Assembly: GCA_016870515.1 (NCBI GenBank)
Contig: VGBL01000021.1
Span: 1 to 37,311 of the forward strand
Direction of reading: 5' to 3'
Source of the DNA: Actinomycetota bacterium
Lineage (GTDB): Bacteria; Actinomycetota; Actinomycetes; S36-B12
DNA length: 37,311 nucleotides
The position numbers were made by a program, and so were the translations under genes. Below are positions 22,633-30,577 of this stretch, in pieces (position 1 is the first letter of the stretch; every line of letters begins with the position of its first letter). A model generated the notes under the pieces. It worked only from the letters and a program-made list of their open reading frames with translations, did no database searches and was not told the origin of the DNA.

Positions 22633-22706
22633 CGGGCTGTAGCGCAGCTTGGTAGCGCACTTGACTGGGGGTCAAGGGGTCGCAGGTTCAAATCCTGTCA
22701 GCCCGA
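22633..22706 (+). tRNA. tRNA-Pro (anticodon GGG)
   Basis: A 74-nt cloverleaf. The acceptor stem CGGGCTG pairs with CAGCCCG, and the discriminator is A. The D arm lies in AGCGCAGCTTGGTAGCGC. The anticodon stem CTTGA/TCAAG encloses the loop CTGGGGG, giving anticodon GGG. The T arm contains GGTTCAAATCC. CCA is not encoded (CAG follows). The 3' part from 22665 is also the attachment site of the mobile element, which restores the gene exactly. Confidence 0.97.
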
Positions 22707-22707
22707 C
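22665..22707 (+). repeat. attL, 43-bp direct repeat inside tRNA-Pro
   Basis: The sequence from CTGGGGGTCAAGG to GTCAGCCCGAC is identical to 30535-30577. It covers the anticodon loop to the 3' end of tRNA-Pro, a usual target for tyrosine integrases. Confidence 0.93.
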
Positions 22708-22727
22708 AGATGTCTTCACACGTCAAA

Positions 22728-22756
22728 GGCCGGCTTCTCACCTCGAGGAGCCGGCC
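22728..22756. terminator. Hairpin terminator just inside attL
   Basis: GGCCGGCTTCTC pairs with GAGGAGCCGGCC (12 bp, one wobble, 5-nt loop). It lies 21 bp after tRNA-Pro and could end tRNA transcripts from the left or small-terminase transcripts from the right. It replaces the terminator now displaced beyond attR at 30615-30649. Confidence 0.7.
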
Positions 22757-22779
22757 TCGACTGTCGTCGGAGGTGGAGT

Positions 22780-22802
22780 GGGGACCATTCTGGGGACCAT
22801 TC
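22780..22802 (+). repeat. Tandem GGGGACCATTC repeats, candidate left integrase arm sites
   Basis: Two direct copies of GGGGACCATTC lie 12 bp apart. The same tandem pair recurs near the other end (30388-30410) and in the second, decayed arm (34288-34309). Short direct repeats flanking the core are the usual arm-type binding sites of tyrosine integrases; binding here is inferred. Confidence 0.6.
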
Positions 22803-22818
22803 CCCTCGAACACTTGAC

Positions 22819-23295
22819 CTAAGTCGGCCGCTTCGGACCTTCGAGAGCGGCGACGTGCGGAGCTCGACCTCGACGTCGCAAAGCCTCGAGCCGGCTCTCT
22901 TCCTTCGGTAGCTCGACGTCGAGACGCTTCCTCGAGGTCGGGGTCAGGCCGAGGGAGTCGAGCATCCGTCCGACCTCAGCGTCAAGAGCTCTGAGCTCCT
23001 TGGAGGCGGCGAGGTTGCCGGCCATGGCCTCGGCTCGGAGTGAGACCCGCTCCTCGAGGGACTCGCGGAGCATGGCGACGAGGATGAGGTCAACCGGGAG
23101 CCACCACGGAGGCGGGTCGGAGACGAGAGCGTCGAAAGCCGCGAGGGAGGCGTCCGAGGGAGGGGGAGTCCCCTCGGCGAGCTTGACCGCTCCTCGAGCT
23201 CGATGTCGTGAGGGTCGGTAGGTGCCTTCGCGGAGGTGCTCCTCGGTCGGCTTCGGGGGTCGGCCGGGAGGCTTCCCGGTCGGCTTTCGTGGCAT
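22819..23295 (-). CDS. Phage terminase small subunit-like protein (P27 family-like)
   Basis: 158 aa. It starts with a basic Pro/Gly-rich tail (PRKPTGKPPGRPPKPTEE). A helical core follows (VDLILVAMLRESLEERVSLR), with KELRALDAEVGRMLDSLGLT and TPTSRKRL, which is the closing pattern of P27-type small terminases. Such proteins recognise viral DNA and hand it to the large terminase. A small terminase without the large subunit or capsid genes is the hallmark of phage satellites, which redirect packaging of a helper phage. ATG at 23295 has GAAAGGA 7 nt upstream. A 151-bp gap separates it from the primase gene, leaving room for its own promoter. Assignment is by eye, so a different DNA-binding role is possible. 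Confidence 0.62.
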   Translation of the reverse strand: MPRKPTGKPPGRPPKPTEEHLREGTYRPSRHRARGAVKLAEGTPPPSDASLAAFDALVSDPPPWWLPVDLILVAMLRESLEERVSLRAEAMAGNLAASKELRALDAEVGRMLDSLGLTPTSRKRLDVELPKEESRLEALRRRGRAPHVAALEGPKRPT

Positions 23296-23299
23296 GGCG

Positions 23300-23310
23300 G
23301 GTCCTTTCGT
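23300..23310 (-). promoter_or_regulatory. Shared leader motif ACGAAAGGACC before the small terminase gene
   Basis: On the minus strand ACGAAAGGACC supplies the Shine-Dalgarno sequence for the start at 23295. The same 11-mer, with at most one change, precedes the excisionase (26697-26707) and opens the primase gene (25836-25846). Confidence 0.55.
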
Positions 23311-23446
23311 TAGGTGGGAGTTATGGCGAGCGTCGAAGTGCCGGCGGCGTGCGTATGGCTACACGGCGGGTAGCGAGGGACGGAGAGCGCTGACTTTCTG
23401 GGGTACTCCCGAGGGATGCCGGGGGGATACCGGCAAGGACGGAGCA

Positions 23447-28840: not shown

Positions 28841-28874
28841 CGTGTGGGGCCCGGGCATGCCCGGGCCCCACACG
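28841..28874. terminator. 34-bp perfect palindrome, terminator of the 28887 gene
   Basis: A fully symmetric sequence centred on GGGCATGCCC, with outer arms CGTGTGGGGCC. It begins 12 bp past the stop of the leftward cargo gene, so it most likely terminates that gene and, from the other side, integrase read-through. A related stem follows the second cargo gene. Confidence 0.75.
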
Positions 28875-28886
28875 ACGCGCTGGAAA

Positions 28887-29426
28887 CTACTTCTTGATCG
28901 TGACGCGGATCTGGCCGAGGCCGAGGTCCGGCGTAAGCGAGTCGACGCCCAGGGCCTCGTTGAGCGTCTTGACGACGACCTTGTCCTTGGTCAGGTGGAG
29001 GTTACCCTGCCACACCTGGCCATCGACACCGTCAGCCTTGACCTTGAAGTGCTTGGCCGTGAAGACCTCGACCATCGTGCCGGCAAACGCCATGCGGACC
29101 TTCGCGGTCTTCTTCGCGGCATTGACGGTGATCACGGGGTTGGAGAGCTCGACACCGCCGACCTTGATGCCGCCGCTGTGCTTGACGACATTGCCGTTGA
29201 CCGCGGTGACCGGGAAGGTCATCTTCGAGCCGATGAACTTCGCGGGGGCGACCGGCGTGATCAGCTTGATGATGCCGGCGTACTCCTTCTTGAAGGAGAT
29301 GAGCGTGGTGCCGCTGGCCTTGGCCTTGGGGGTGGCGGCCTGGACCGGGCCCGAGGCGATGGCCGCGGGGGCTGCAACGAGCGCGACGGCGGTGGCCGAG
29401 GCGATGAGGGTCTTGCGGAGGTTCAT
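28887..29426 (-). CDS. Secreted protein, paralogue 1 (HtaA-like beta-sandwich?)
   Basis: 179 aa. A Sec signal peptide (NLRKTLIASATAVALVAAPA, cleavage near VQAA) precedes one extracellular domain rich in beta strands: GTTLISFKKEY, KMTFPVTAVNG, HSGGIKVGGVELSNPVI and LGLGQIRVTIKK. The FPVT...HSGG...NPVI pattern weakly recalls HtaA-type heme-binding domains, but the typical conserved aromatic residues are not obvious. ATG at 29426 has GGAG 5 nt upstream. Codon choice is host-like (GCC, ATC), unlike the satellite core. It is paralogous to the gene at 29617. Confidence 0.82.
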   Translation of the reverse strand: MNLRKTLIASATAVALVAAPAAIASGPVQAATPKAKASGTTLISFKKEYAGIIKLITPVAPAKFIGSKMTFPVTAVNGNVVKHSGGIKVGGVELSNPVITVNAAKKTAKVRMAFAGTMVEVFTAKHFKVKADGVDGQVWQGNLHLTKDKVVVKTLNEALGVDSLTPDLGLGQIRVTIKK

Positions 29427-29566
29427 GGAGTCTCCACTCATGAGGGGCGTGGGGCGCTCGGGGGAGCGCGTAGTGAGCCTCCATTATCACATGCGGCCGG
29501 GGCCGCTCAGGCGCCGAGGTCCGGAAATCCGCCCTTCCCCCCGGGCCTAGGGACCCCCAGCACGTG

Positions 29567-29600
29567 CGTGGGGCCCGGACCATCAGGTCCGGGCCCCACG
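29567..29600. terminator. 15-bp hairpin terminator of the 29617 gene
   Basis: CGTGGGGCCCGGACC pairs perfectly with GGTCCGGGCCCCACG around the loop ATCA, 16 bp beyond the stop of the leftward gene. It shares the GTGGGGCCCGG arm with the palindrome at 28841-28874, so the two gene-plus-terminator units look duplicated. Confidence 0.85.
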
Positions 29601-29616
29601 TGAGAAGCAGCGTGGG

Positions 29617-30150
29617 CTACTTCTTGATGTTGATGGTGGTGCGGATCTGGCCGAGGCCCATGTCGGGGGTGAAAACATCGGCGCCGACCGCCGAGTTGAG
29701 GGTGTCGACCACCAGGGTGTTGGTGGTCAGGTGGAGGAAGCCCTGCCACACCTGCTGCTTCTTGCTCTGGGTGCGGATCTTGAAGTTCTTGATGGTGAAG
29801 AGCTCGATCGAGCCGAGAGCGGAGGTCACGGTGATGCTCGCGGTGTCATTGGCGCCGATCACGATCACGGGATCGGAGACCTCGACGGCACCGACCTTGA
29901 TCGCACCCTTGTGGTAGACCATCGTGCCCTTGACGTTGGTCACGGGGAAGGTGAGCTTAGTGCCCGACTTCTTGGCGGGGGTCACCGCGACGATGCCGCC
30001 GACGACCGTTGCGAGCTTCTTGTCGAACGAGATCAGCGTGGTGCCGCTGTAGGTGGTCTTGGCCGTGGCCGCAGGGGCGGCGGCCATGCCGACACCGGCA
30101 ACCAGGGCGACGCCGGCGGCGACGCTGACGAGCTTCTTGGTGAAATTCAT
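29617..30150 (-). CDS. Secreted protein, paralogue 2 (HtaA-like beta-sandwich?)
   Basis: 177 aa. A signal peptide (NFTKKLVSVAAGVALVAGVG, cleavage near ATA-KT) precedes a beta-rich domain aligned throughout with paralogue 1. Shared elements include SGTTLISFDKK, KLTFPVTNVKG, HKGAIKVGAVEVSDPVIVI, QQVWQGFLHLT and MGLGQIRTTI. ATG at 30150 has GGAGGG 5 nt upstream. Role unknown: it could alter the cell surface or bind a ligand such as heme. It is the attR-proximal cargo gene of the element. Confidence 0.82.
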   Translation of the reverse strand: MNFTKKLVSVAAGVALVAGVGMAAAPAATAKTTYSGTTLISFDKKLATVVGGIVAVTPAKKSGTKLTFPVTNVKGTMVYHKGAIKVGAVEVSDPVIVIGANDTASITVTSALGSIELFTIKNFKIRTQSKKQQVWQGFLHLTTNTLVVDTLNSAVGADVFTPDMGLGQIRTTINIKK

Positions 30151-30384
30151 GAACCCTCCGTGGGTCTACTTCTCCAGACCCCCGCAGGGGGCCGGCCGCC
30201 CACGGCGGTCGTCGAGCTCGGCAAGCGTCGGCGACAAAGGCCGAGGAAGTGGCGACGGTCGAGGAATCGACTGAGGCACCTAAGCTCGCCATGGAGTCCC
30301 CCTCGACCTCGCCGACGGAAGCCTTACTCGCGGCGGACAAGCCGGACGTCAAGGCAGGTCAAGCGCGGGAGAGCCGACCCGGAA
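30151..30384. other. Intergenic stretch before the right arm
   Basis: No convincing gene. A GTG at 30249 (GAGG just upstream) opens a plus-strand frame of Ser/Thr/Glu-rich codons in the CTC/TCG style of the satellite core, running on through the arm and att site. It may be a relic of a core gene separated from the integrase side by cargo insertion. Confidence 0.4.
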
Positions 30385-30385
30385 T

Positions 30386-30556
30386 CCGGGGACCATTCTG
30401 GGGACCATTAGCGTCCGGACAGAGCGAGAGTCGGCGTCACCGGCCGGCATCGAGCTCGTCTCTCTGCTCTTCGTTATGGGGAGAAGTCTCAACCGGTAGC
30501 ACTCGGAATCACGCGGCATCACAGCCGCGTTCGCCTGGGGGTCAAGGGGTCGCAGG
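30386..30556 (+). repeat. Right attachment arm, copy 1
   Basis: 171 bp align without gaps to 34286-34456 at a fixed 3900-bp offset, with about 14 differences by eye (about 92% identity). It contains the tandem GGGGACCATTC/TTA pair at 30388-30410 and the start of the att core. Confidence 0.85.
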
Positions 30557-30577
30557 TTCAAATCCTGTCAGCCCGAC
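30535..30577 (+). repeat. attR, 43-bp direct repeat of the tRNA-Pro 3' end
   Basis: Identical to 22665-22707. It lacks the acceptor 5' strand and the D arm, so it is not a tRNA gene. It defines the right end of the intact element. Confidence 0.92.

Follow-up and report, generated by a model that had tools for sequence, protein, structure and literature searches.

In the 37,311-nucleotide contig VGBL01000021.1 of an actinobacterium (Actinomycetota bacterium, S36-B12 lineage; GenBank assembly GCA_016870515.1; hereafter the window), positions 22665-30577 probably constitute a phage satellite resembling the phage-inducible chromosomal islands (PICIs), without a capsid gene of its own and with its own packaging gene, encoding a protein like the small terminase subunit (TerS). 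This reading is based on perfect attachment (att) cores, identical integrase arm-type repeats, an integrase (int) and helix-turn-helix (HTH) regulator divergent from excisionase (xis), replication (rep) and TerS genes, and the absence of virion or conjugation genes from the unit. It further draws on concordant though weak TerS matches, the substitution pattern of TerS, a second attR with an integrase relic, TerS relics in the sister genome G002, arm-bearing left ends in the sister genomes G002, G007 and G008, and matching layouts elsewhere (loci L102, L105 and L093). The unit would work like a PICI; with a weak TerS match and with induction and packaging that are predicted, it is a candidate rather than a proven member of the PICIs. 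The features of the unit and its target are as follows:

22633-22707, plus strand: tRNA-Pro(GGG), the integration target, whose 3′ part is attL (ARAGORN; Rfam tRNA 65.3 bits at 22633-22706)
22665-22707, plus strand: attL core, 43 bp (43/43 identity with 30535-30577)
22780-22801, plus strand: left integrase arm-type repeat (putative function), (GGGGACCATT)x2 with a CT spacer; the same 22-mer recurs at 30388
22819-23295, minus strand: terminase small subunit-like protein (P27/Terminase_6 type), 158 aa (weak Pfam, PHROG and TIGR01558 matches)
23447-25849, minus strand: replication protein, 800 aa, primase-polymerase (Prim-Pol) plus AAA_25 helicase-type ATPase (Prim-Pol 9.2e-17, AAA_25 1.3e-27, phrog_11515 3.3e-52)
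25855-26334, minus strand: 159-aa open reading frame (ORF) without Pfam or PHROG match, one NCBIfam match at 0.25
26337-26468, minus strand: 44-aa ORF, no match in four libraries
26468-26710, minus strand: excisionase (Xis), 80 aa (HTH_17 8.6e-11; TIGR01764 excise 5.5e-10)
26707-26777, no strand: operator-like inverted repeat (putative function), TCATGGGTCGG ... CCGACCCATGA, with 11-bp perfect arms, spanning the divergent xis/HTH start region
26787-27410, plus strand: HTH regulator, 207 aa, in Stl-like position (HTH_3 2.6e-5, HTH_31 1e-5)
27407-28597, plus strand: tyrosine integrase, 396 aa (Phage_integrase 1.5e-20; phrog_1 6.5e-62)
30388-30409, plus strand: right arm-type repeat, identical to 22780-22801
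30535-30577, plus strand: attR core, 43 bp (43/43 identity with 22665-22707)

An earlier note on this DNA had placed the element between 43-bp perfect att repeats in tRNA-Pro, and this was borne out: besides the 43/43 identity of the cores, a 42-bp pattern of the core (up to 3 mismatches) was found at two places in the window and in 0/100 shuffles. The repeat-to-repeat unit measures 7,870 bp, which is the predicted size of the excised circle. Exact copies of the 22-mer GGGGACCATTCTGGGGACCATT lie inside both element ends, at 22780 and 30388, and its 10-mer (up to 1 mismatch) occurs in 9 copies in the window versus 1.78 expected, a count reached by 0 of at least 100 shuffles. Because their position and direct repetition fit, the GGGGACCATT repeats may represent arm-type integrase sites.

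The unit displays a divergent int-repressor versus xis-replication plan: the HTH regulator and the integrase lie on the plus strand, with xis, the 44-aa ORF, the 159-aa ORF, the Prim-Pol/AAA_25 gene (sent to Pfam and PHROGs as the longer frame 23447-26062) and the TerS-like gene divergent from them on the minus strand. Pfam and NCBIfam matches uphold this arrangement, which the earlier note had already described, and the unit's genes are open frames. Likewise in line with that note, Pfam and PHROG scans of the unit's ORFs gave no match above noise to large terminase, portal, capsid, tail, FtsK or relaxase, nor to lysis genes. Only weak matches bore a virion label: those of the TerS ORF to phrog_226 (minor tail, 0.0057) and to phrog_38466 (head protease, 0.28), of the 177-aa cargo ORF to phrog_2186 (virion structural, 0.12) and of the replication protein to phrog_8125 (tape measure, 0.7). 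Across the divergent start region, the 11-bp inverted repeat was matched by 2/500 shuffles of 26690-26800; in the narrower interval 26711-26786 the longest inverted pair measured 7 bp and was equalled in 52/500 shuffles. This repeat might tentatively be regarded as the operator of the HTH repressor. A sigma-70 consensus scan returned 0 promoters, and the gap downstream of the replication gene (23290-23460) contained no iteron array. Directly after int, positions 28756-28874 hold GC-rich repeats of ~21 bp followed by a 34-bp perfect palindrome (28841-28874) that looks terminator-like by eye.

The 158-aa protein matched Terminase_6 (2.1e-5; 25.4 bits, cut-off 27), Terminase_4 (0.0062) and Terminase_7 (0.027) in Pfam, phrog_83 (5.5e-5) and phrog_361 (0.037) among the PHROGs, and the P27 model TIGR01558 (0.019) in NCBIfam. 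The earlier designation as a P27-like small terminase thus stands insofar as the models of three libraries agree, all of them weakly and below curated cut-offs, and the protein can be read, at that strength, as a divergent member of this type. Alignment to the relic in G002 covered 96 codons (aa 33-128) with one stop, and without that codon the remaining 95 gave a nonsynonymous rate (dN) of 0.052 and a synonymous rate (dS) of 0.218. The TerS sequence was therefore held by past purifying selection on the protein.

Relatives of the Prim-Pol/AAA_25 protein were found in 4 of 99 related genomes and in 16 of 394 class genomes at E<=1e-30 (own included in both counts), and at 6 loci in a separate genome-contig collection, one of which is common to the class set. 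The 20 other loci considered below consist of 15 from the class genomes (E<=1e-30, 2 candidates scored per genome) and 5 from the genome-contig collection, with G064 (2.5e-24) and G096 (4.1e-19) left out; contig L021 of G096 also carries relatives of Xis (42%) and of the integrase (31%). Relatives were further obtained from 329 phage records (Mycobacterium 127, Gordonia 119, Microbacterium 43, others), none covering 80% of the query, and from 14 plasmid records, including Streptomyces, Pseudonocardia and Tsukamurella; the phage and plasmid matches extend over roughly half of the protein at most. Gene counts at the 20 loci are lower bounds, because ORFs were picked by size, position and codon bias and only part of them was scanned. 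On this basis at least four loci carry TerS (L092, L093, L105 and, with a broken frame, L102), at least four a capsid gene (L096, L097, L105 and L106) and at least one tail genes (L094); TerS and capsid were seen together in L105. No packaging or virion match emerged among some ORFs scanned of L089, L090, L091, L095, L099, L103 and L104, and L087/L101, L088, L098, L100 and the G059 locus contribute no ORFs to the family scans.

Virion genes at homologous loci were what the earlier note had expected of a reduced prophage, and the capsid genes at 4/20 loci and tail genes at 1/20 partly support that outcome. The unit could accordingly be pictured as what is left of a satellite or prophage that once carried a capsid gene and has since shed its virion genes; such a remnant would perhaps still excise, retain TerS as a leftover and move rarely or never, a history that would also fit the 329 actinophage and other phage records with relatives of one half of the replication protein, and the decayed family copies in the window, G002 and G007. 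We nevertheless regard it as unlikely, given that the unit's genes are open, the two att cores agree at 43/43 positions, purifying selection has acted on TerS, and L093 has TerS in the same place with no capsid among the ORFs scanned. Of the seven loci in which capsid or TerS was seen, five lie between exact repeats (25-43 bp) with a spacing of just 8.0-11.8 kb, which suits satellites better than whole prophages.

Layouts matching the gene order that the earlier note proposed to look for occur at three loci, each with a modification. L102 (Nocardiopsis sp. CNR-923) carries int-HTH / HTH_17 (xis type)-rep-TerS, with its TerS frame broken (the phrog_1496-type gene is apparently split over two frames at L102:12300-13000). 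L105 (Streptomyces dysideae) has a 43-bp repeat 8.9 kb apart enclosing int-HTH / AAA_25-capsid-TerS, with an added capsid (3.7e-24) and a TerS matching Terminase_4 (2.2e-18) and phrog_83 (1.3e-28). L093 has a 43-bp repeat in tRNA-Ala, 8.0 kb apart, together with int, Toprim/AAA_25 and TerS (phrog_1496, 2.7e-20); no HTH or xis was recognised among its scanned ORFs. At the remaining loci, L092 (G251) combines a 27-bp repeat 10.4 kb apart with int, an xis-type HTH, a rep relative and TerS (phrog_1496, 1.5e-21). Its repeat copies (6842 and 17227) lie at the end of a gene read by eye as glutamine synthetase; because of this position the element may use glnA as its target. One end of L094 likewise adjoins a glnA-like gene. 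L106 (Nocardia acidivorans) shows a 25-bp repeat at tRNA-Arg, 10.1 kb apart, with Prim-Pol, AAA_25 and a protease-capsid fusion, and L096 (G162, 5226-17055) is bounded by two tRNA-Ser copies that have 39 bp in common and lie 11.8 kb from each other, and encodes a major head protein (2e-104). L096 also has two recombinase genes next to each other, one of the resolvase type (Resolvase 1.5e-39) and one encoding a tyrosine recombinase (Phage_integrase 1.3e-17). L097 has int and rep relatives and a major head protein (4.7e-39) at a contig end. The search for att-type repeats covered 11 loci, L097 excluded, and gave none of at least 14 bp in L102 and L094 and none in L090.

The TerS genes belong to PHROG kind 83 in L105, a model that the window's TerS matches too, though weakly, and to 1496 in L093 (by profile hidden Markov model) and L102 (by phmmer to the L092 protein), so that the int-HTH / xis-rep chassis occurs with two PHROG kinds of TerS, with or without capsid. 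Three TerS-labelled matches were not counted: the stretch matching phrog_57 at L094:8019-8426 (3.7e-6) also matches excisionase and regulator models, the matches at L106:16487-17371 (best 9.7e-5) fall in the HTH of a DNA-binding-protein family scoring 6e-34, and for the match at L096:10920-11576 (6.9e-5) an unknown family scores better.

The plasmid relatives raise the prospect of an integrative plasmid, or of a mobilisable island akin to the actinomycete integrative and conjugative elements, served by a conjugative helper, with the 158-aa protein being some other DNA-binding protein. Relatives of one part of the replication protein do sit on the 14 plasmid records, two Streptomyces ones of which carry GntR, ParA and integrase genes, and GntR genes are present in L093 and L105 as well. 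However, the unit has no FtsK/Tra or relaxase match, the gene at its end has weak matches to terminase models and none to a plasmid family, and the similarly arranged L105 has strong terminase and capsid genes, which makes this explanation very unlikely.

The element had been taken as isolated, and in this respect the earlier view has to be revised: it forms one layer of an att-site array that includes a second decayed attR, an integrase relic and relics in sister genomes. The arm repeats, the second decayed attR with its array, and two paralogous cargo genes between int and attR are all additions to the earlier description. The features concerned are:

28887-29441, minus strand: cargo gene, 184 aa, product with a signal-like N-terminus (secretion judged by eye), 52% identity to its neighbour
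29617-30150, minus strand: cargo gene, 177-aa paralogue of the 184-aa protein (52% identity)
32397-32538, plus strand: integrase relic, 3′ end of a second copy (95.8% nucleotide identity to 28456-28597 over 142 bp; 96% at the amino acid level)
32797-34260, plus strand: phosphoesterase gene, placed like cargo within the relic (Metallophos 4.4e-6)
34286-34476, plus strand: relic second attR with arm, core decayed (89% identity to 30386-30577)
34942-36162, plus strand: beta-lactamase/esterase-family gene, next array segment (PF00144 4.3e-58; homologue with 82.6% nucleotide identity in G006)

Repeated tRNA 3′-end cores thus separate the cassettes at 22665, 30535 and, decayed, 34435, the relic core (34435-34476) retaining 83.7% identity to the intact one. 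In the piece between attR and the integrase relic (30578-32396), a 442-aa ORF at 30793-32121 was noted to contain calcium-binding RTX-type repeats (NCBIfam Ca_rpt 2.6e-15). Because the phosphoesterase gene, between the integrase relic and the relic attR, occupies the position of the unit's two secreted-type genes, the int-attR interval appears to be a cargo slot with exchanged content. The cargo protein family has matches in 8/11 genus genomes, and chromosomal relatives of the pair, likewise two adjacent genes, were seen at G000:C1:188599-189970.

The left arm after the tRNA was compared in the sister genomes other than G001 and G010, whose contigs end at the site, and G005 and G009, from which the site was not retrieved. 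It is exact in G002 (L017:1506), has 2 mismatches each in G007 and G008, and was not found in G003, G004 and G006; the right arm beyond the core of 43-51 bp occurs, among 11 genomes, only in the window's own, twice. In G002, two TerS relics on either side of a DsbB-family gene come after the tRNA, and beyond them the flank homologous to the window from 36279 onward resumes. In G007, a short left end of the unit passes directly into sequence matching the window from 37034 onward. We read the decayed attR and integrase relic in the window, together with the TerS relics in G002, as a probable stacking of successive insertions. In G008 (L068:1-2894), the same 43-bp tRNA-Pro core terminates a stretch that contains an HNH gene and has unrelated arms, which appears to be the end of another element. 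In G006 (L065:2242-5047), two att cores with dissimilar arms flank the 82.6%-identical esterase gene, and the interval between them shows no match to this integrase; the esterase gene may be a cassette moved in trans. Relics and cores in the window and these four genomes point to repeated use of the tRNA-Pro site by this family, and probably to its use by other families too.

The G006 cassette, with the same 43-bp core on both sides of an esterase gene and no match to this integrase, and the matching of the cargo family in 8/11 genus genomes would also be expected of a plain tRNA-associated genomic island, in which an integrase moves cargo cassettes and any phage help is incidental. Such an island, though, leaves the replication protein, TerS and the constraint on TerS unexplained, and we consider it very improbable.

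Several observations weigh against the satellite reading. The TerS matches lie below curated cut-offs and mostly within the C-terminal half, where phrog_226 and phrog_38466 match too, and the single-sequence AlphaFold2 model of the 158-aa protein is poor (pLDDT 62.7), with 0 Foldseek matches of that poor model to PDB and BFVD at E<=0.001 (a BFVD match named terminase small subunit, at E 1.4, was left unused). No TerS relative was found in 50,697 phage records (E<=1), in IMG/VR or in 393 other class genomes (E<=1e-4), and the search of the 99 related genomes returned its own gene, the G002 relics as sole real relatives, and one false match in G007 (9.2e-4), which is ribosomal protein L29 (Ribosomal_L29 1.1e-25). 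IMG/VR yielded no contig for TerS, Prim-Pol, integrase, HTH or the 159-aa ORF. No interference gene was recognised in the unit with Pfam, PHROGs, NCBIfam or PADLOC, and the 159-aa and 44-aa ORFs had no convincing matches there (PADLOC pointed to no defence system of note, giving only weak matches, from Xis and the HTH protein, and none for the 159-aa ORF). L094 pairs its int, HTH and rep relatives with genes for a tape measure (8.7e-155) and a minor tail protein (8.3e-168), and looks like a prophage or larger element. Finally, no resident helper was seen, because the large terminase PF03354 had no match in any of the 11 genus genomes (drafts of 60-560 contigs; other terminase families not searched); PF03354 and PF23931 together recovered nothing there except the TerS of the window itself. 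Genomes would bear no resident trace of a virulent helper. PF05119 matched in 8/19 genomes; leaving aside the TerS of the window and that of G002, none of these matches shared a contig with a replication-gene relative.

From the observed anatomy, att cores, arm repeats, relics and past TerS constraint of the satellite, we infer every dynamic step of the following cycle, and its helper. In the resting state, the HTH protein would repress the divergent promoter at the xis/HTH inverted repeat, until a helper phage lifts this repression. Xis and integrase would then excise the 7,870-bp circle via the 43-bp cores and the (GGGGACCATT)x2 arms, and the Prim-Pol/AAA_25 protein would replicate it. The satellite TerS would steer the large terminase of the helper, directing satellite DNA into helper particles, and on entry into a new cell the integrase would reinsert the DNA at tRNA-Pro, rebuilding the tRNA 3′ end. 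Because every insertion leaves an att core, new copies could stack on old ones, which would decay and leave the cargo of their int-attR slot behind.

The gene plan that had suggested a PICI-like satellite in the first place thus holds, and Gram-positive PICIs are similar in size to this unit. In the established PICI layout, outlined in PMC6092414, int and a regulator are combined with replication genes and, in some PICIs, with terS. The Gram-positive (SaPI-type) islands share with the unit int and repressor divergent from xis-like and primase-replication genes (and, in some islands, from TerS, to which the unit has a TerS-like counterpart), att repeats, the absence of structural genes and edge cargo. 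In contrast, the present unit has a Prim-Pol/AAA_25 fusion, a divergent P27/Terminase_6-like TerS and no recognised interference or capsid-size gene. Candidate PICIs of Mycobacterium, including phiRv1/phiRv2-like elements, are likewise actinobacterial, and the three tyrosine-integrase examples given in PMC10654092 sit in tRNA genes; according to the same account, however, they are defined by int plus major capsid and have the capsid gene that this unit lacks. The Streptomyces satellites MiniFlayer and MulchRoom also belong to actinobacterial hosts, but are portrayed in PMC10690885 as virulent-phage parasites with capsid and packaging genes and no recognised primase, whereas the present unit is integrated and encodes a primase-polymerase. 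Additive flexible islands, with cassettes behind repeated tRNA ends, and tycheposons, which are tRNA-linked cargo islands with a tyrosine recombinase, resemble the array in the outline given by PMC10872708; here, in contrast, the stacking unit has its own replication and TerS-like genes. A survey of actinobacterial prophages assumed, in the relevant passage of PMC10023795, that many small elements could be satellites. Our literature search of titles and abstract openings, covering few subscription journals, retrieved no description of this element.

Capsid-free actinobacterial satellites are easily missed, because the Mycobacterium survey, in its stated approach, used a capsid criterion beside SatelliteFinder (PMC10654092). 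As a tentative proposal that we hold to be possible rather than probable, a genus-level lineage of TerS-carrying, capsid-free satellites may rebuild one tRNA-Pro flexible island, in which arrivals stack, bring cargo between int and attR and leave it on decay, and across actinobacteria the same int-HTH / xis-rep chassis may take up different kinds of TerS, in some cases alongside a capsid gene, as suits the helper in question. A chassis of integrase, rep and an exchangeable TerS would supply a search rule for such satellites. The stacked relics would document a way in which satellites could introduce cargo genes into bacterial genomes.

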